Positions 17,706 through 24,935 of a stretch of 64,000 nucleotides of DNA are shown here, in pieces (positions within the stretch are counted from its first letter, which is position 1; each line of letters begins with the position of its first letter). Where the stretch lies: NCBI RefSeq assembly GCF_000373565.1, contig NZ_KB891798.1:496206-560205 (forward strand), in the 5' to 3' direction. Position numbers and translations under genes: made by a program. The notes beneath the pieces are model-generated. The model did no database searches. It saw only the letters and a list, made by a program, of their open reading frames with translations, and was not told the DNA's origin. Source of the DNA: Streptomyces sp. HmicA12. GTDB taxonomy: Bacteria; Actinomycetota; Actinomycetes; Streptomycetales; Streptomycetaceae.

Positions 17706-18857
17706 TCAGACGGACGGCGCCGCACGCGTCGTGAGGAACAGCCGGCGCAGGTACGGCGTGAGGAACACGCCTTCCGGGTCCAGGGCCGCACGGACCCGCT
17801 GGAAGTCGTCCCAGCGCGGATGCCGGGCCCGCAGCGCGTCCGCGTCGAGGCTGTGCAGCTTGGCCCAGTGCGGGCGTCCGTCCGCCGCGAGCAGCGCACG
17901 TTCGGCCGCACGCAGCCACCTCTGGCGTCCGGGCGCGGGCGGCGCGGCGAGGTTGATCCATGCCGTGGCGCGGCCGTGCGCGGGGCTGAGCCAGGTCGCC
18001 TCGGCGGGGCCCGGCCGGATCTCCAGTGGCAGCGGGGCGGCGGAGCCGGTGGCGGCCAGGGCGGTGCGCAGTGCGGTGAGGGCGTGCGGAAGGCGTTCCA
18101 GAGGGACGGCATACTCCAACGCGGCAAACGGGCGCGGCGGCGTGGGCAGCAGGACGCTTCGGTGCGCAGGCGCCGTGGCGGCGCACCGGCCGCCCCGGGA
18201 GCGGTGCAGGTCCTGCCAGGGGAACCAGAACGCCGACACGTGCTCGCCGCAGGCGGCCCAGCCCAGCGGATCGGCACGCAGGTCCGCGAGCGGCAGGTAG
18301 CGCTCGTCGCGGCGCAGGAGGTGGTCCTGGACACAGGCCAGAGTGAGGTGGGTGACGACGCCCAGAGTGCCCAGGGACAGGCGCACGGCGGCGAGCCGGG
18401 GATCGTCCGCGTCCACGTCGACGATCTCCCCGTCGGCGGTGACCAGACGGGCGCCCGTCACCTGTGCGGACAGAGACGGGTGTCGGCCGCCGCCGTGGGT
18501 GCCGGTGGCTACGGCGCCGCCCACCGTCGGCGCGGGTGTGGTCGCCAGGCCCGTGACGGTGCGGCCCGTGCCGTGCAGGGCCGCACCGAGGTTACCCAGG
18601 GACGTGCCCGCGCCGACGGTGACCTGCCCGTCGCTCCGGTCGGCGGTCACGCCGCGCAGGGCACTGGTGTCGATCAGCAGACCCGACGTGCCCGTCACCG
18701 GGGCGAAGGAGTGCCCGGCGCCGGCGGCCCGCACCGGCCATCCGCGCTCCCGGGCCGTGCGCACGAGCGCGGCCACGTGCTCCGCGTCGCGCGCCACGAC
18801 GTGGCGGGCGGGAACGCATCCGGCGGTCCGGCCCCAGTTGCTCCAGGTGCGGGTCAT
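17706..18857 (-). CDS. FAD-linked sugar/sugar-lactone oxidase (alditol or aldonolactone oxidase type)
   Basis: 383 residues. N-terminal PP-loop FAD domain: GWPVRAAGAGHSFAPVTGTSGLLIDTS and PTVGGAVATGTHGGGRHPSLSAQV (VAO-family signature). The C-terminus HPRWDDFQRVRAALDPEGVFLTPYL is the ALO/alditol oxidase type. In the family, oxygen oxidises alditols or 1,4-lactones with release of H2O2. The ATG at 18857 overlaps the stop of a 60-residue upstream ORF (18854-19036) by 4 nt. The precise substrate (xylitol-like alditol or galactono/arabinono-lactone) is not resolvable here. Confidence 0.85.
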   Translation of the reverse strand: MTRTWSNWGRTAGCVPARHVVARDAEHVAALVRTARERGWPVRAAGAGHSFAPVTGTSGLLIDTSALRGVTADRSDGQVTVGAGTSLGNLGAALHGTGRTVTGLATTPAPTVGGAVATGTHGGGRHPSLSAQVTGARLVTADGEIVDVDADDPRLAAVRLSLGTLGVVTHLTLACVQDHLLRRDERYLPLADLRADPLGWAACGEHVSAFWFPWQDLHRSRGGRCAATAPAHRSVLLPTPPRPFAALEYAVPLERLPHALTALRTALAATGSAAPLPLEIRPGPAEATWLSPAHGRATAWINLAAPPAPGRQRWLRAAERALLAADGRPHWAKLHSLDADALRARHPRWDDFQRVRAALDPEGVFLTPYLRRLFLTTRAAPSV

Positions 18858-19036
18858 GCCGGGCGGGCCACGGCGTCGGCGGGACTCGCCGGGCCCCGCT
18901 CGGCGACCTGGCGGGCGATCCACGCGTACATGGGGCGCAGGCCCTCGGACAGGGGGACACACGGTTGCCAGGAGTCATGCACGACAACGATGGCCTCGGC
19001 CGCATCCGGATCGGCGCCACCGGTTCCTGGATTCAC
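18854..19036 (-). pseudogene. 60-residue ORF resembling the C-terminus of a sugar-nucleotide epimerase
   Basis: The ORF ends in WQPCVPLSEGLRPMYAWIARQV, which looks like the end of NAD-dependent sugar-nucleotide epimerases (pattern GW.P...L.EGL..TY.WI..QV). The Rossmann part is missing, and a divergent TetR gene begins 101 nt away. It overlaps the oxidase start by 4 nt (ATGA). Most likely the relic of an epimerase gene that once preceded the oxidase; a genuine small protein is the alternative. Confidence 0.35.
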
Positions 19037-19139
19037 CCCGCCACGCTACGAGCGATGGTGACCTGCGGCGACTTGAGATCGTGGGTCCGGCTCGCTGCCG
19101 GGCCGGGAGGCCGCACCGGCGTACTACCCTTCCGAGGTG

Positions 19140-19811
19140 ATGACCCCCACCGAGCCCCACGACCCGCGGCCGGACGACGCCCGCGGCTCGGCCGCAGCTC
19201 AGGGGAGCCGCGCGACCACCTCTGCCGCCGACTCCGACGGCCGGGCCGAGGGAACCCGTCCGCCGGCCAATCAGGGCCGCCGGGTCGCGGCCCGAAACCG
19301 GGCCGCCCTGATCGCCGCCGCCCGCGAAGTCTTCGCGGAACAGGGGCTGAACGCCCCGCTGTCGGCTGTCGCACGCCGCGCCGGGGTGGGCCAGGGCAGT
19401 CTCTACCGGCACTTCGCCGACCGGACCGCGCTGGTCTTCGCGGTGCTGGACGAGAACGTCCGGCAGATCGAGCTCGCCGCCGCCGAACCCGGTGTGCGCC
19501 TGGAGAGCGTGCTGGGCGTGGTCACCTGGCATCTGACCAGGTCGACGGCGTTCGTCGACCTGTTGCGCGTGCGCGGCGACGACGAGCAGGCCCGGGCTCT
19601 GTCGGGGCGCGTCCGTACCGTCCTCGACCGGCGTCTACGGGCCGGCCATCGCCTGTCCGCCGACGAACTCATGCTCGCGATCGCGATGGTGTCCGGAGCC
19701 GTCGCCGGCCCCACTCCGGCGGAGCGGGAGCGCCTCGCCCTGGAGGCCTGGCGCCTGCTCGATGTCGAAGTGGGGCCGTTGCGGCCGTTCGAGACGGCCG
19801 TCGAGGGGTGA
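19140..19811 (+). CDS. TetR-family transcriptional regulator
   Basis: 223 residues from ATG 19140 (a GTG lies one codon earlier). A disordered N-terminal extension of about 45 residues precedes the helix-turn-helix LIAAAREVFAEQGLNAPLSAVARRAGVGQGSLYRHFADRTALV. The last 90 residues match the TetR C-terminal domains of the SACE_7040-like group. It is convergent with the SMP-30 lipoprotein gene (3 nt gap) and is the nearest regulator to the 22-bp palindrome at 22120, for which it is the best candidate ligand. Confidence 0.85.
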   Translation: MTPTEPHDPRPDDARGSAAAQGSRATTSAADSDGRAEGTRPPANQGRRVAARNRAALIAAAREVFAEQGLNAPLSAVARRAGVGQGSLYRHFADRTALVFAVLDENVRQIELAAAEPGVRLESVLGVVTWHLTRSTAFVDLLRVRGDDEQARALSGRVRTVLDRRLRAGHRLSADELMLAIAMVSGAVAGPTPAERERLALEAWRLLDVEVGPLRPFETAVEG

Positions 19812-19814
19812 GCG

Positions 19815-20855
19815 TCAGCCGCCGTTGGACTGGCGGATGCCCTCGGCAAGCGCGGTGAACTGGTAGATGTAGCCGCCGTCGGGGCCGCTGACGGTCATGT
19901 ACGCCGTCGTGCCGCCGGGGGTGATCGCGACATTGGTGGCCGATTCCAGGCCGTCGGCGTCCTTGGCGGGGATCTCGACCGTGGCGAGTCGTGCCCCGTA
20001 CTTGTTGTAGACGGCCATGGCGGGGCGGCCGTGCAGTCCCTGGTAGAGGTTGCCGTCGGCGTCCACGGCGATGGAGTCGGTCTGGGCCAGGCCGCCGTTG
20101 ACGTGGATGGCCTCGTGCTGGTTGGTCACCTTGGTCTTCTCGGCGTCGAGCAGCAGATAGGACACGGTGTCCTTGGTGAGCTCGCTGGTCCACAGGCCGC
20201 GCCGCTCGGGGTCGAACATGATGCCGTTCGGCTGGGCGAGCCCGTCGGCCAGGACGGTGGCCTTGGTGCCGTCGCGGTCGATGCGCACGATCCGGCCGTC
20301 GGTCTCGTCCGGTTCGGTGCCGTGCGCGTCGCTCACGTACAGGTTGCCCGCATCGTCGAAAGCGGCGTCGTCCGGTGTCATCCTGGAGCCGTCGACGGTG
20401 CCGGAGAAGAACGTCCGGGGCTCGGTGCCGTCCGGTTCCACGCTGACGACGGCGCCGGTCGCGAAGTCGGTCAGGTACACGCGGCCGTCGTACGGGCTGA
20501 TCTGCGCGGAGGTGTAGGCGCCCGTCCTGTCGGTGTAGACGCTGCGGTGCTTGCCGCTCTTCACGTCGAGGGAGATGAGCTTGGGCTCGCCCGGGGGAGC
20601 GGTGACATCCACGACGTACAGGTCGCGGTTTCCTACCAGGAGCGGACCCTCCAACAGGGTCCTTCCGGTGGCCTCGTGAGGGTTCGTCAGGTGCGCGGCC
20701 TTGACGGCCCGGATGCTGCTGCCCTCGCCGGACGGTGCGGGATGCCCGGCCGCGGTGGTGCCTGCCTGGGTGCCGCAACCGGTCAGTGCCAGGAGCCCGG
20801 CGGCGGCCAAGCCGGCCAGGGTTCGGGGGGTGTGGTGGGTGCGGTGAGTGGTCAT
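19815..20855 (-). CDS. SMP-30/gluconolactonase-like beta-propeller lipoprotein
   Basis: 346 residues: signal peptide with lipobox ending LALTGC, then a six-bladed propeller of the SMP-30/gluconolactonase/strictosidine-synthase-like type (GRVYLTDFATGAVVSVEPDG, AFDDAGNLYVSDAHG, GLAQPNGIMFDPERRGLW, SIAVDADGNLYQGLHGRPAMAVY). Such proteins are often metal-dependent lactonases. It lies downstream of the SDR gene on the same strand and near a Baeyer-Villiger monooxygenase, so hydrolysis of a lactone product is a reasonable inference, although its extracytoplasmic location would separate it from the monooxygenase. Confidence 0.8.
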   Translation of the reverse strand: MTTHRTHHTPRTLAGLAAAGLLALTGCGTQAGTTAAGHPAPSGEGSSIRAVKAAHLTNPHEATGRTLLEGPLLVGNRDLYVVDVTAPPGEPKLISLDVKSGKHRSVYTDRTGAYTSAQISPYDGRVYLTDFATGAVVSVEPDGTEPRTFFSGTVDGSRMTPDDAAFDDAGNLYVSDAHGTEPDETDGRIVRIDRDGTKATVLADGLAQPNGIMFDPERRGLWTSELTKDTVSYLLLDAEKTKVTNQHEAIHVNGGLAQTDSIAVDADGNLYQGLHGRPAMAVYNKYGARLATVEIPAKDADGLESATNVAITPGGTTAYMTVSGPDGGYIYQFTALAEGIRQSNGG

Positions 20856-20877
20856 GCGGTGCTGTGCTCCTTCCTGT

Positions 20878-20896
20878 CGTCCGGGCGGCCCGGACG
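20878..20896. promoter_or_regulatory. 19-bp inverted repeat upstream of the SMP-30 gene
   Basis: CGTCCGGGC (20878-20886) and GCCCGGACG (20888-20896) form a perfect 9-bp dyad around one G, 22 nt upstream of the SMP-30 start. It could be an operator sharing the TCCGG/CCGGA core with the palindrome at 22120, or the SDR terminator. Confidence 0.45.
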
Positions 20897-20998
20897 TGGT
20901 GACGTGCAGGAGGTGTGCGCCCGGCGCCGAGGGCGCCGGGCCGACGAACCGGCCTCTCGGCCGGGGTGGACGGCGGAGCGGCCGGATCCGAACGGCCG

Positions 20999-22060
20999 TC
21001 AGGCGACGGACCAGCCGCCGTCGGAGGGCAGGATCACGCCGTTGAGGTTCACCGCGTCCTTGCTGAGCAGGAAGGCGATCGAGGCGGCGAGCTCCTCGGC
21101 CATGGCCAGGCCCGGTATCGCCACACGCATCCTCGCGGTGCGGGACGATCCGAACGGCGCGGCGGCGGGCACCTGGATGCCGGTGGCCACCGCGCCCGGG
21201 GCGACGGCGTTGACCTGCACGCCCGTGCCCGCGTACTGGTACGCCGACGACTTCGTCAGGCCCACCAGAGCGTGCTTGGAAGTCGTGTAGGCGGCGCCGG
21301 CCGCCGAGCCGCGCAGAGCCGCCTCGGAGACGATGTTGACGATCCGTCCGCCGCCCGCGGCGAGCATTCCGGGCACGACGGCGCGCATCAACCGCATGGG
21401 GCCGTCGACGTTGATCCGCATGACGCGATCCCAGATCTTGTCGTCGACCTCGTGCACGGCGGCGTCGTCGTCCATGACGCCCGCGACGTTCGCCAGCGCG
21501 TCCACCCGGCCGCCCGCGGCGGCGAGTACGGCGTCGGCGGAGGCGGGCGCGGTGATGTCCGCGGTGACGGGCACGACGGCCGCACCCAAGTCGGCTGCCA
21601 GGGCGGCGAGTCCGTCGCCCGAGACGTCCACGGCGATCACACGGCCGCCCTCGCGCACGATCCGGGAGGCGACCGCCCTGCCGATGCCGGAGGCGGCGCC
21701 GGTCACGACGACGGTCTGCCCGTCGAAGCGGCCGGGCGTGATCTGCTCGGACCACGGCTCGGCGGCGCCGATCTCGACGCCGAGGTCGGGCTCCGCCGTC
21801 GCGGTGTCGGCGGGCGGGGGAGCGGTGGGCAGGCCCTCCGGGACCCGGCCGGTCTCGGCCGCGGTGACCAGGGCGTCGACGAGTTCCGGCGGGAACTTCC
21901 CGCCGGACATCTTCACGAGCTGCTCCAACGGCAGGCCGAGAGCGGGGGCGAGAGCCTGCTCGCTCTGGCCGCCCTGGGCCAGCATGCCGCGCAGCACCTG
22001 TCCGGCGGCGGGGTCCGCCAGCCAGTCGCGCAGCGGGGAAGCGGGGGTGAGGTTCGACAT
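20999..22060 (-). CDS. SDR oxidoreductase with N-terminal helical domain
   Basis: 353 residues. Residues about 6-70 (SPLRDWLADPAAGQVLRGML, LGLPLEQLVKMSGGKFPPEL) form a small helical domain like the tail found on some glycosidases and SDRs. Residues 110-353 are a classical SDR: VVVTGAASGIGRAV (NAD(P) binding), NVAG, catalytic S in IVNIVSEAALRGS, and a Y..TSK motif (AAYTTSKHALVG). It probably interconverts an alcohol and a ketone. It diverges from the Baeyer-Villiger monooxygenase with a 22-bp palindrome between, so shared regulation is likely. Confidence 0.88.
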   Translation of the reverse strand: MSNLTPASPLRDWLADPAAGQVLRGMLAQGGQSEQALAPALGLPLEQLVKMSGGKFPPELVDALVTAAETGRVPEGLPTAPPPADTATAEPDLGVEIGAAEPWSEQITPGRFDGQTVVVTGAASGIGRAVASRIVREGGRVIAVDVSGDGLAALAADLGAAVVPVTADITAPASADAVLAAAGGRVDALANVAGVMDDDAAVHEVDDKIWDRVMRINVDGPMRLMRAVVPGMLAAGGGRIVNIVSEAALRGSAAGAAYTTSKHALVGLTKSSAYQYAGTGVQVNAVAPGAVATGIQVPAAAPFGSSRTARMRVAIPGLAMAEELAASIAFLLSKDAVNLNGVILPSDGGWSVA

Positions 22061-22119
22061 CGCGGGCCTTTCACATCGTGGGGGGCTCGGGCGGGCCGCC
22101 GAACGCGAGGCCGCACCCC

Positions 22120-22141
22120 AACCGGACAAGGTTGTCCGGTT
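22120..22141. promoter_or_regulatory. perfect 22-bp palindrome, probable TetR operator
   Basis: AACCGGACAA (22120-22129) and TTGTCCGGTT (22132-22141) are perfect inverted arms around GG. It lies in the 182-bp divergent region between SDR (start 22060) and monooxygenase (start 22243). The size and symmetry fit a TetR dimer pair. Confidence 0.75.
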
Positions 22142-22242
22142 CTTGGGTTACGGTACCCGTGACCGCGCGGCAGGCTGCGCGAGGGCGCTGCCCCACCCAC
22201 GCGGAGACACCCGAACCTCCCCCCACGAGAGGAATCCGCCCC

Positions 22243-24057
22243 ATGACGCTGCCGCACTGCGACACGCCCCCCACCCCGCAGGAGGCCGCCGACCTGCGCG
22301 AGCGCTACCGCGTCGAGCGCGAGCGTCGCATACGCCCCGAGGGCCCGGGGCAATACCGTTCCACCACCGCGGAGTTCGGCTATTTCGCCGCCGATCCGTA
22401 CGTCCCCGACACGGCGGAGCGCGAGCCGGTGCACGACGTGGTCGACGTCGCGATCGTCGGCGGCGGGTTCGGCGGGATCCTGGCGGGCGCGCGGCTGCGC
22501 ACGCAGGGCGTGGCCTCGGTGCGTGTCATTGACCAAGGCGGCGACTTCGGCGGCACCTGGTACTGGAACCGCTACCCGGGCATCCACTGCGACATCGAGT
22601 CGCACGTCTACCTGCCGCTCCTCGACGAGACCGGCTACGTACCCGAGTGGAAGTACGCCCCCGGTGAGGAGATCCGTCGCCACGCGGTGCGTATCGCCGA
22701 GCAGTTCGACCTGTACGAGAGTGCCTTGTTCTCCACCACCGTGACCGGCTTGACCTGGGACGAGCCGGCCCGGCAGTGGAGGGTCACCACAGATCGCGGC
22801 GACGTCTTCCGCGCCACCTACGTCATCACCGCCACCGGCACGCTCACCGAGCCCAAACTGCCCGGCATCCCCGGGATCGAGGACTACAAGGGCCACACCT
22901 TTCACACCTCCCGCTGGGACTACGGCTACACCGGCGGCCACTCCGGGGGCGGGATGACGGGCCTGGCCGACAAGCGGGTCGGCGTCGTCGGCACCGGCGC
23001 GACCGGCGTACAGGTCATCCCGAAACTGGCCGAGGACGCGGGTCACCTCTACGTCTTCCAGCGCACCCCCTCCGCCGTGGACGTACGCGGCCAGCGACGC
23101 ATGTCGCCGCAGGAGGTCGGCGCGGACCGTCCGGGCTGGGCGGCCGAACGGCGCGAGAACTTCCTGCGGATCGTCTCGGGGGAGAGCGCCGGACGGGACC
23201 TGGTGGCCGATCGCTGGACGGAGTCCGCCGCTCTCCTCGAAAAGCTCCTGCCGAGCTTCCGCCGCGACGGCGAACCGGACTTCGAGTCCGCCTACGAGGC
23301 CGCCGACCACGCCACGATGAACCAGATCCGCGAGCGTGTGGCCAAGGAGGTCGCCGACGCCACGACCGCCGACGCCCTCCAGCCCTGGTACCGGTACGCC
23401 TGCAAACGCCCCACGTTCTCCGACACGTACCTGCCCACGTTCAACCGGGACGACGTCACTCTGGTGGACACCGCCGACTCCCACGGCATCGAGCGGATGA
23501 CCGAACGGGGCGTCGTCGTCGGCGGGGTGGAGTACGAGGTCGACTGCCTGATCTTCGCCACCGGGTTCTCGGTGGGCGTCTCCGGCATCACGTCGGGGAA
23601 GCTGCCGGTGACCGGCCGCGACGGCGTCGAGCTCCTGCACACGTGGGCCGATCGGGGCCCGCGCACCCTGCACGGCTTCACCAGCATCGGGTTCCCGAAC
23701 CTGATCCGGATGGGCTCGCTGCAGAACGCCAGCAGCGTCAACTTCACGAACATCCTGGACGAACAGGCCCTGCACGCCGCCGCCCTGGTCGCCGCCGCGC
23801 AGCAGAAGGACGCCCTCGTGGAACCCACCCCCGAGGCCGAGGACGCGTGGATGGAGACCTGCGCGCAGGGCGCCCCCGACCACGAGTGGTTCCACGCCGA
23901 GTGCACCCCCGGCTACTACAACCGAGAGGGCCGCGGCCGCCCCAACGGCCCCACCGCCTACCCGCACGGCGCCGTCGCCTTCCACGACCTGCTGCGCCGA
24001 TGGCGCGAGGAGAACATCGACGAAGCCCTCAGGCCGAAGAGCGGCACGCCCGCCTGA
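22243..24057 (+). CDS. type I Baeyer-Villiger monooxygenase
   Basis: 604 residues, the usual size for phenylacetone- or cyclododecanone-type enzymes with an N-terminal extension. FAD Rossmann motif G73-GGFGG; Baeyer-Villiger fingerprint YKGHTFHTSRWD at 215-226 (FxGxxxHxxxWD with Y in first position); NADPH Rossmann VGVVGTGATG around 246-255; conserved DFGGTWYWNRYPG. It inserts one O atom into a ketone to give an ester or lactone using NADPH and O2. With the divergent SDR (alcohol to ketone) and the SMP-30 lactonase it forms a logical alcohol-ketone-lactone-hydroxyacid route. Confidence 0.92.
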   Translation: MTLPHCDTPPTPQEAADLRERYRVERERRIRPEGPGQYRSTTAEFGYFAADPYVPDTAEREPVHDVVDVAIVGGGFGGILAGARLRTQGVASVRVIDQGGDFGGTWYWNRYPGIHCDIESHVYLPLLDETGYVPEWKYAPGEEIRRHAVRIAEQFDLYESALFSTTVTGLTWDEPARQWRVTTDRGDVFRATYVITATGTLTEPKLPGIPGIEDYKGHTFHTSRWDYGYTGGHSGGGMTGLADKRVGVVGTGATGVQVIPKLAEDAGHLYVFQRTPSAVDVRGQRRMSPQEVGADRPGWAAERRENFLRIVSGESAGRDLVADRWTESAALLEKLLPSFRRDGEPDFESAYEAADHATMNQIRERVAKEVADATTADALQPWYRYACKRPTFSDTYLPTFNRDDVTLVDTADSHGIERMTERGVVVGGVEYEVDCLIFATGFSVGVSGITSGKLPVTGRDGVELLHTWADRGPRTLHGFTSIGFPNLIRMGSLQNASSVNFTNILDEQALHAAALVAAAQQKDALVEPTPEAEDAWMETCAQGAPDHEWFHAECTPGYYNREGRGRPNGPTAYPHGAVAFHDLLRRWREENIDEALRPKSGTPA

Positions 24058-24171: not shown

Positions 24172-24852
24172 TCACGGTTGAGAGGGAAAGCAGACCTTCC
24201 GGTCCGCACTGCAGATCTCGGCCTTCGAATCGATGGGGCCGTAGGGCCGGTCGAACGTCAGGAAGGTGACCTTCCGGCCCGACGGGAACCTCGACACCAC
24301 CTGCTGCACAGGCCCCGCGCCCGACGCACGCCTGACATGGTCGAAGTGCCGGGAACCACCCTCGGCGATCACGAAGCTCACCATGCGGACCTGGTCCTCC
24401 TTGCCCTCCTCCAGAATCTGGTCCGGGGTGCCGCTGTCCACGAAGAGCAGCCCGGGTGCGGGCGCCTTGTCGGGAGGGGAGCCACAGGCCGATGTGGTCT
24501 TCGAGCGCCGCACCATGAGCCAGCAGAAGGTGCGTCCGTCGGGCATCCAGGCCAGCTCGCCGGTCGTGTCGTCCTTGCGGTGAATCACCGCCACCGTGTC
24601 GTCCGCCGGAAGGTCGTACCCGACCGGGAGCCGGAGATGCCCCAGCGCCTTCCGCAGGAACACACCGTCGCGAGCGGTGGCGACGGCCGTGCCCGTGGGC
24701 CGAGCGGGCATCCTGTCGTACGTCCGGTGCGTGGCCGAAGGCGCGGCGGTCGTGGTCGCCTTCGGCGTGGGTGTCCCTTGTGCCGACGTACATCCCGTCA
24801 GTGCCACCAGCACCACGACACTTGTGCTCGCGAAAACCCGTCGCTTCGACAC
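24172..24852 (-). CDS. secreted lipoprotein, unknown function
   Basis: 226 residues from GTG 24852 (GTG 24858 also possible; both follow a G-run). Signal peptide with lipobox LVALTGC, then a Thr/Ala/Pro-rich linker and a soluble domain with RLPVGYDLPADDTVAVIHRKDD and paired Cys residues (FCWLM, SACGS, ICSADRKVCF). No catalytic motif was recognised. Probably anchored to the outer face of the membrane. Confidence 0.7.
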   Translation of the reverse strand: MSKRRVFASTSVVVLVALTGCTSAQGTPTPKATTTAAPSATHRTYDRMPARPTGTAVATARDGVFLRKALGHLRLPVGYDLPADDTVAVIHRKDDTTGELAWMPDGRTFCWLMVRRSKTTSACGSPPDKAPAPGLLFVDSGTPDQILEEGKEDQVRMVSFVIAEGGSRHFDHVRRASGAGPVQQVVSRFPSGRKVTFLTFDRPYGPIDSKAEICSADRKVCFPSQP

Positions 24853-24935
24853 AACCACCCCCCGTTGCGCGGATCTTAGTTCGAAGAACGGCGGCCCGGA
24901 GCGAAATGCGTGGTCGGGCCGTCCGCGCGAGCCCG

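Follow-up and report, generated by a model that had tools for sequence, protein, structure and literature searches.

Introduction

Cycloalkanol and cycloalkanone operons (cyclohexanol, cyclopentanol, cyclododecanone) hold an alcohol dehydrogenase, a Baeyer-Villiger monooxygenase (BVMO) and a lactone hydrolase in one set, and the lactonases that they use are cytosolic alpha/beta-hydrolases. The locus described here lies in a 64,000-nt stretch (the window; contig NZ_KB891798.1, positions 496,206 to 560,205) of the 9.16-Mb genome of Streptomyces sp. HmicA12, where genes for a TetR-family regulator, an SMP-30/gluconolactonase-like (SGL) lipoprotein and a short-chain dehydrogenase/reductase (SDR) are followed by a 22-bp operator-like dyad and a type I BVMO gene. 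Its enzyme logic is that of the cycloalkanol operons, but the putative lactonase is an SGL propeller predicted to be exported. The best solved relative of the window BVMO, PDB 5mq6, is presumably PockeMO (the PDB entry is named differently), a fungal enzyme. Drp35 of Staphylococcus aureus, which is cytosolic, has its fold and presumed metal-site residues in common with the SGL protein at 20% identity, whereas the SGL protein is a predicted lipoprotein associated with a BVMO. In pentalenolactone biosynthesis the ketone comes from a preceding SDR step.

The monooxygenases PtlE, PenE and PntE and Sle_62070 of Streptomyces leeuwenhoekii fall in the same BVMO group as the window enzyme (PMC6058054). 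In that report Sle_62070 accepted 17 of the 30 compounds tested, and the profiles of two enzymes include a steroid as well as ketones of cyclic, aromatic and linear type. Relative to the PtlE group, the window BVMO scores below the family cut-off and lies on another branch, and its partners are instead a TetR and an exported SGL protein; Sle_62070 is likened to it by description only. The same holds for BVMO4 of Dietzia sp. D5, a CPDMO-group enzyme of ~600 aa like the window BVMO. In the excerpted text (PMC4052671) BVMO4 accepts methylcyclohexanones, menthone and phenylacetone, and ketosteroids more slowly, and a close relative, in a region otherwise similar, lacks both the BVMO4 gene and a TetR gene; unlike the window cassette, no lactonase or SDR is mentioned in that excerpt. 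The relatives studied so far thus accept not only simple ketones but also bulky, bicyclic or substituted ones.

A limited search of the open-access literature returned no description in which an exported SGL lactonase is paired with a BVMO, which is weak evidence of absence. The fixed unit of TetR, dyad, BVMO and exported lactonase, with the covariation of its regulator and operator, looks undescribed; the overall kind of system is already known. The comparisons below suggest, at roughly two chances in three, a TetR-repressed catabolic cassette that would convert an alcohol via a ketone and an ester or lactone to a hydroxy acid, with an exported Drp35-like lactonase.

Results

Conserved core of the cassette

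All four genes named in a preliminary description of the window were found where it had placed them, and their families were confirmed by Pfam and NCBIfam (Pfam E-values: TetR_N, 1.7e-13; SGL, 7.2e-26; adh_short, 3.7e-48; Pyr_redox_2 and FMO-like for the BVMO). That observation is confirmed, and the interpretation built on it was partly supported by genome comparison. The core BVMO group was defined by scores of 620-680 bits against the NCBIfam PtlE model NF045818, giving 36 loci in 35 of 295 Streptomyces genomes, one of which (G273) has two. A 660-bit protein (G237) was left out, its locus L081 being only 46% identical, and neither the locus of a 692-bit protein (G217) nor loci L198 and L199 (see below) are among the 36. 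SGL is divergent from BVMO, and TetR convergent with SGL, at every core locus except L111, which begins at a contig end, its SGL and TetR being on a different contig of that genome; at L109 TetR lies ~3 kb further away. The SDR, presented earlier as the divergent partner of BVMO and separated from it in the window by a 182-bp intergenic region, lies between SGL and dyad at only three of the 36 loci (the window, L042 and L043), and in one named record, L118 from S. alfalfae. SDR and BVMO were therefore rejected as the conserved core. Judged by gene content, that core is TetR-SGL-dyad-BVMO, and the constant divergent pair is SGL and BVMO.

By genome, the BVMO group occurs in 35 of the 295, SGL in 39 (E ≤1e-40) and TetR in 37 (E ≤1e-25); the 35 lie wholly within both of the other sets, and every genome with TetR also has SGL. 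The genomes beyond the BVMO set are G029 and G244, and two with SGL only, G023 and G337 (39-43% identity). In G029 (L198) the BVMO is gone, SGL, TetR and an intact dyad are kept, and the -10-like box is changed to CACGGT. On the other side of that dyad a gene named by eye as like a major facilitator superfamily (MFS) transporter points towards it. G244 (L199) holds a decayed remnant of the cassette, in which SGL and TetR were each matched in two pieces and BVMO residues 378-602 remain; no dyad was found in this remnant. Many of the 36 loci and of the named records are from the same or near species and their counts are not of independent events, and the 64 SGL, 59 TetR and 106 BVMO homologue rows used below hold some species twice.

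Outside this genome set, 25 of 80 named loci show 71% identity or more to the BVMO, and the dyad is present upstream of it at all 25, including records from Nocardia carnea, N. flavorosea and Halosaccharopolyspora lacisalsi. Among the other 55 (sister loci) only L154 reaches 16 of the 18 dyad positions, as a variant form; two of these, L181 and L185, end at a contig start, at the start of the BVMO, with the upstream DNA unseen. A maximum-likelihood tree of 72 BVMOs places 45 core rows on one side of a single branch (support 100/100). SGL lipoproteins also lie beside sister BVMOs from Promicromonospora (two), Rhodococcus, Nocardiopsis and Arthrobacter. The earlier grouping of the four genes was borne out by a locus of another family, L233, where TetR, BVMO, SGL and an SDR with the same N-terminal module (see below) stand together; at L240 BVMO, SGL and such an SDR share one strand. 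A cytochrome P450-like motif was seen within ~6 kb at 2 of 37 core loci, at 3 of 14 further core loci and at 9 of 45 sister loci, raw counts that hint at a P450 partner in the sister group only.

The dyad and a candidate promoter

The palindrome noted earlier between the SDR and BVMO genes is real, but it is not perfect: by inverted-repeat analysis of the window, its 10-nt arms AACCGGACAA and TTGTCCGGTT pair and the central GG does not. In the aligned core loci the conserved arms are 9+9 nt around a variable centre of 4 nt. The consensus AACCGGACA-N4-TGTCCGGTT, taken as the best-scoring stretch within 300 nt upstream of BVMO, is present at all 36 core loci, where 16-18 of the 18 arm positions agree with it; ATCCGG replaces AACCGG in G021 and in one of the G273 copies. 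The dyad pattern matched once in the window and in none of 100 shuffles, well beyond what chance would give. The exact pattern ACCGGACA-N4-TGTCCGGT was found in 36 of the 295 Streptomyces genomes, as a single site in each, and the reversed control pattern had no match in the listed rows of that scan. Thirty-four of the exact sites are at BVMO loci and one is at the G029 remnant; the last (G300, L251) is part of an extended GC-rich hairpin immediately beyond a called gene, unrelated to the cassette. With 35 of 36 exact sites at the cassette, the dyad was rejected as a common motif or terminator. A loosened search (up to 2 mismatches in a 20-mer) gave matches in 58 of 199 relatives, many at other places. 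Autoregulation of TetR through a second copy of the dyad was also rejected, there being one exact site per genome and one match in the window.

A TANNGT hexamer follows the dyad at all 36 core loci, at a distance of 5 nt (32 loci) or 7 nt (4 loci), and all 10,484 upstream positions contain only 40 such hexamers, the 36 box copies included. This hexamer is probably the BVMO -10 box, and the dyad would therefore sit on the promoter. A possible -35 element seen by eye, CGGACA in the left arm, lies 18 nt from the -10-like box at the 32 loci and 20 nt from it in the group of four that includes the window, and no -35 box was established for the window promoter.

Pairing of TetR with the dyad

TetR of the window has a TetR_N helix-turn-helix (Pfam) and probably starts at GTG 19137, because L042 retains this GTG but not the ATG at 19140. 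Its recognition helix reads RAGVGQGSLYRHF, and the core form VGQ[GA][SV][LM]YR[HN][FL] was found in the 57 readable rows of 59, L084 and L101 being gapped in this region and not counted. Sister BVMO loci that have a TetR (L144, L145, L147, L154 and L233) instead have the helix VSRTTL[HY]R (5 of 5), and at the same five the dyad is of the AA[AC]CGTAC type, with a mirrored change in the right arm (arms AACCGTACA); these dyads were picked by their resemblance to the core dyad, and at L144 and L147 they are imperfect. The core type of recognition helix and the core dyad were also found together away from BVMO genes. Among 18 fetched loci with the N-terminal SDR module, tblastn placed a TetR beside the SDR, without BVMO, at five from other genera (L241, L243, L244, L247 and L249). 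There a TetR with the helix AGVGQGSLYRHF, 37-44% identical to window TetR over ~150-175 residues, is divergent from the SDR, and ACCGGACA-N4-TGTCCGGT lies between the two genes at 5 of 5 loci. Helix and site thus pair across genomes, in two states only and among related loci that are not independent. It is mainly this covariation that leads us to accept the link between TetR and the dyad: the two appear to change together, which supports the earlier proposal that TetR regulates through this site.

The monooxygenase

The BVMO contains the motifs GGGFGG, GTGATG and GGTWYWNRYPGIHCD and the fingerprint YKGHTFHTSRWD, with Y for F at its first position; in the 106 homologue rows this residue is F in 94 and Y in 8, with no match in 4. 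Type I enzymes are recognized by two Rossmann motifs together with [AG]GxWxxxx[FY]P[GM]xxxD and FxGxxxHxxxW[PD] (PMC6058054), and the window protein shows this set. The match to its nearest solved relative, 5mq6 (E 1.2e-118, 400 bits, residues 9-565), likewise supports the type I identity proposed earlier.

The nearest named NCBIfam model is that of PtlE/pentalenolactone D synthase, and PtlE, PenE and PntE are biosynthetic (PMC6058054). The locus might accordingly be a biosynthetic tailoring set, in which BVMO would make a secreted lactone natural product and SGL would serve in self-protection or product editing. We consider this unlikely. The BVMO reached 657.6 bits over residues 18-591, against a model cut-off of 1100, and was rejected as a PtlE on this ground; matches above the cut-off occur in 8 of the 295 genomes, and a true PtlE (L117) lies elsewhere on the BVMO tree. 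Neighbour clustering, which used a rough gene caller that found TetR at 28 and SGL at 25 of the 36 core loci, likewise revealed no shared biosynthetic partner: beyond BVMO, TetR and SGL, only SDRs clustered at more than four loci (10 of 36).

The SGL lipoprotein

A lipobox is present in 64 of 64 SGL homologue rows, 5 of them from sister genera, and residues E69, D162, D163, N210, D260 and S261 are invariant in all 64. D162/D163, N210, D260 and S261 align with Drp35 D138/D139, N185, D236 and S237, which we take to be metal-site residues; E69 is outside the alignment. In a predicted-structure model (pLDDT 86.5) the closest fold is Drp35 (PDB 2dg0/2dg1; Z 37.9, root-mean-square deviation 2.3 Å, 290 residues aligned, 20% identity), followed by the RPA3624 lactonase (Z 34.8, 2.0 Å, 269 aligned) and DFPase (Z 33.3). 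The Pfam match, the propeller fold and the presumed metal-site residues agree, and support a predicted exported, Drp35-like and lactonase-like lipoprotein, as the preliminary description had it with its extracytoplasmic lactonase.

Since DFPase, a phosphotriesterase, has the same fold, SGL might merely bind the BVMO product or hydrolyse something else, under a shared regulator and outside any linear pathway. The invariance of the presumed metal-site residues and a partnership with BVMO that outlasts changes of gene order make this quite improbable. Alternatively, the exported SGL could open extracellular lactones, with SDR and BVMO dismantling what enters, as a means of turning over a lactone signal or toxin. 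Such a role would suit the lipoprotein signal in all 64 rows, the Drp35-like fold and the G029 locus; yet no signal synthase recurs near the 36 core loci, as called with the rough gene caller, and TetR matches the autoregulator-receptor model ScbR only partially (residues 50-125, 45.9 bits against a cut-off of 150). We hold it to be improbable, and continue to favour a lactonase acting in the catabolic cassette.

The SDR and its N-terminal module

Classical SDRs are marked by TGxxxGxG and Asn-Ser-Tyr-Lys, and by alignment the window SDR has both TGxxxGxG and N217-S245-Y258-K262. It also has an extra N-terminal module of ~75 residues, overlooked in the preliminary description (structure model pLDDT 71.9). 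The module may be dispensable, since the L118 protein has lost it and kept the catalytic domain. Nine of the 33 other core loci, several of them close kin, have an SDR match above 100 bits no more than 4 kb from the BVMO start, and none has one farther away. SDRs with the module also stand beside sister BVMOs at L156 (Actinoalloteichus) and L180 (Pseudonocardia), and are joined by both BVMO and SGL at two loci (L233 and L240). From these neighbourhoods the SDR appears to be an optional partner of the cassette in Streptomyces, and the association does not seem fortuitous.

Few Streptomyces genomes have the module (7 of 295, in one of these within a GH43 protein), and at class level it was found in 36 of 296 genomes, representing 18 of 114 genera (E ≤0.001, some matches partial). 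It starts the GH43 protein (L044, 9396-9629) and ends GH3 proteins (L220, L229, L231 and L232), and Glyco_hydro_3_C (Pfam) is present in 4 of 4 GH3 proteins with the module that were tested. At L045, L046 and L047 relatives of the SDR occur with GH1-, GH2- and rhamnosidase-like genes, an MFS transporter and a TetR, all named by eye; because of this company, SDRs with the module may also act on glycoside-derived substrates.

Discussion

Gene identities, the pairing of dyad and TetR, the co-occurrence of the genes, the catalytic and metal-site residues and the lipoprotein signal are all supported at the level of sequence. From these we infer a direction for the pathway, repression rather than activation, an inducer, a substrate and an SGL acting on the product of its own BVMO. 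TetR bound to the dyad between the divergent SDR-SGL and BVMO genes would block the BVMO promoter until a small molecule, probably a pathway ketone or lactone, released it. The SDR would oxidize a secondary alcohol to a ketone, into which the FAD- and NADPH-dependent BVMO would insert oxygen, yielding an ester or lactone. On the outside of the membrane SGL, lipid-anchored and metal-dependent, would open the lactone to a hydroxy acid.

Several findings weigh against this catabolic scheme. At 33 of 36 core loci the SDR does not stand between SGL and the dyad, and 11 of the 18 fetched loci with the N-terminal module have neither BVMO nor this TetR nearby, so that such SDRs serve elsewhere too. 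SGL may act without BVMO, because G029 keeps dyad, SGL and TetR though its BVMO is gone. Within 6-kb flanks, some of them truncated, an SGL with 49% identity or more is lacking at 50 of 55 sister BVMO loci, and a TetR match at 51 of them. No coenzyme A ligase, thioesterase or other downstream enzyme was found at more than four of the 36 loci with the rough gene caller, and no second exact dyad lies at the TetR gene in the window or the 295 genomes. Finally, a cytosolic BVMO and an exported lactonase require the lactone to cross the membrane. Such a split between cytosol and exterior could suit a substrate that crosses membranes freely, or could protect the cell from the lactone.

The core is also found on 0.9-Mb Streptomyces plasmids (L252 and L253), in S. 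atratus, where it is near an IS21 element, and in S. fungicidicus; both copies have the dyad in place and no SDR between SGL and BVMO. Because of these plasmid copies the cassette may be mobile. It is conceivable, if doubtful, that it is a mobile actinobacterial module, carried on megaplasmids as well, for clearing a diffusible lactone or ketone such as a neighbour's signal or antibiotic, with SGL working outside, BVMO and SDR inside, and one TetR sensing the same compound.

As a catabolic unit, the cassette gives the bulky-ketone BVMO group a testable physiological context, namely a regulator with a predicted site and a putative lipoprotein lactonase. A simple reporter could identify the ligand of TetR and thereby give a lead to the natural substrate, and the two pairs of recognition helix and operator offer ready material for work on changes in TetR specificity.

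Features of the window

Table 1. Positions of the cassette genes and associated elements within the window.
Feature	Position	Strand	Remarks
TetR-family regulator	19137..19811 or 19140..19811 (GTG 19137 or ATG 19140)	+	Convergent with SGL gene; Pfam TetR_N
SMP-30/gluconolactonase-like lipoprotein, predicted Drp35-like beta-propeller	19815..20855	-	Lipobox LTGC; Pfam SGL
SDR dehydrogenase with N-terminal extension	20999..22060	-	Pfam adh_short, motif alignment
Coding stretch of SDR N-terminal module (residues 1-76)	21833..22060	-	Helical in model; no Pfam match
Operator-like dyad AACCGGACAA-GG-TTGTCCGGTT	22120..22141		Between SDR and BVMO starts
-10-like box TACGGT for BVMO	22149..22154	+	Putative promoter element
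Type I Baeyer-Villiger monooxygenase, PtlE/PockeMO/CPDMO group, 604 aa	22243..24057	+	NCBIfam, PDB match, tree

Three further features adjoin or lie within the cassette. Next to the TetR gene, 17706-18962 encodes an FAD-linked protein resembling sugar-lactone oxidases, which had no tblastn match at 1e-3 in L042 or L043. Downstream of BVMO and convergent with it, 24172-24858 encodes a predicted protein that is lipoprotein-like by eye and matches no Pfam or NCBIfam family. Between the SGL and SDR genes, a perfect 10-nt inverted repeat at 20919-20941 is a possible attenuator or terminator.

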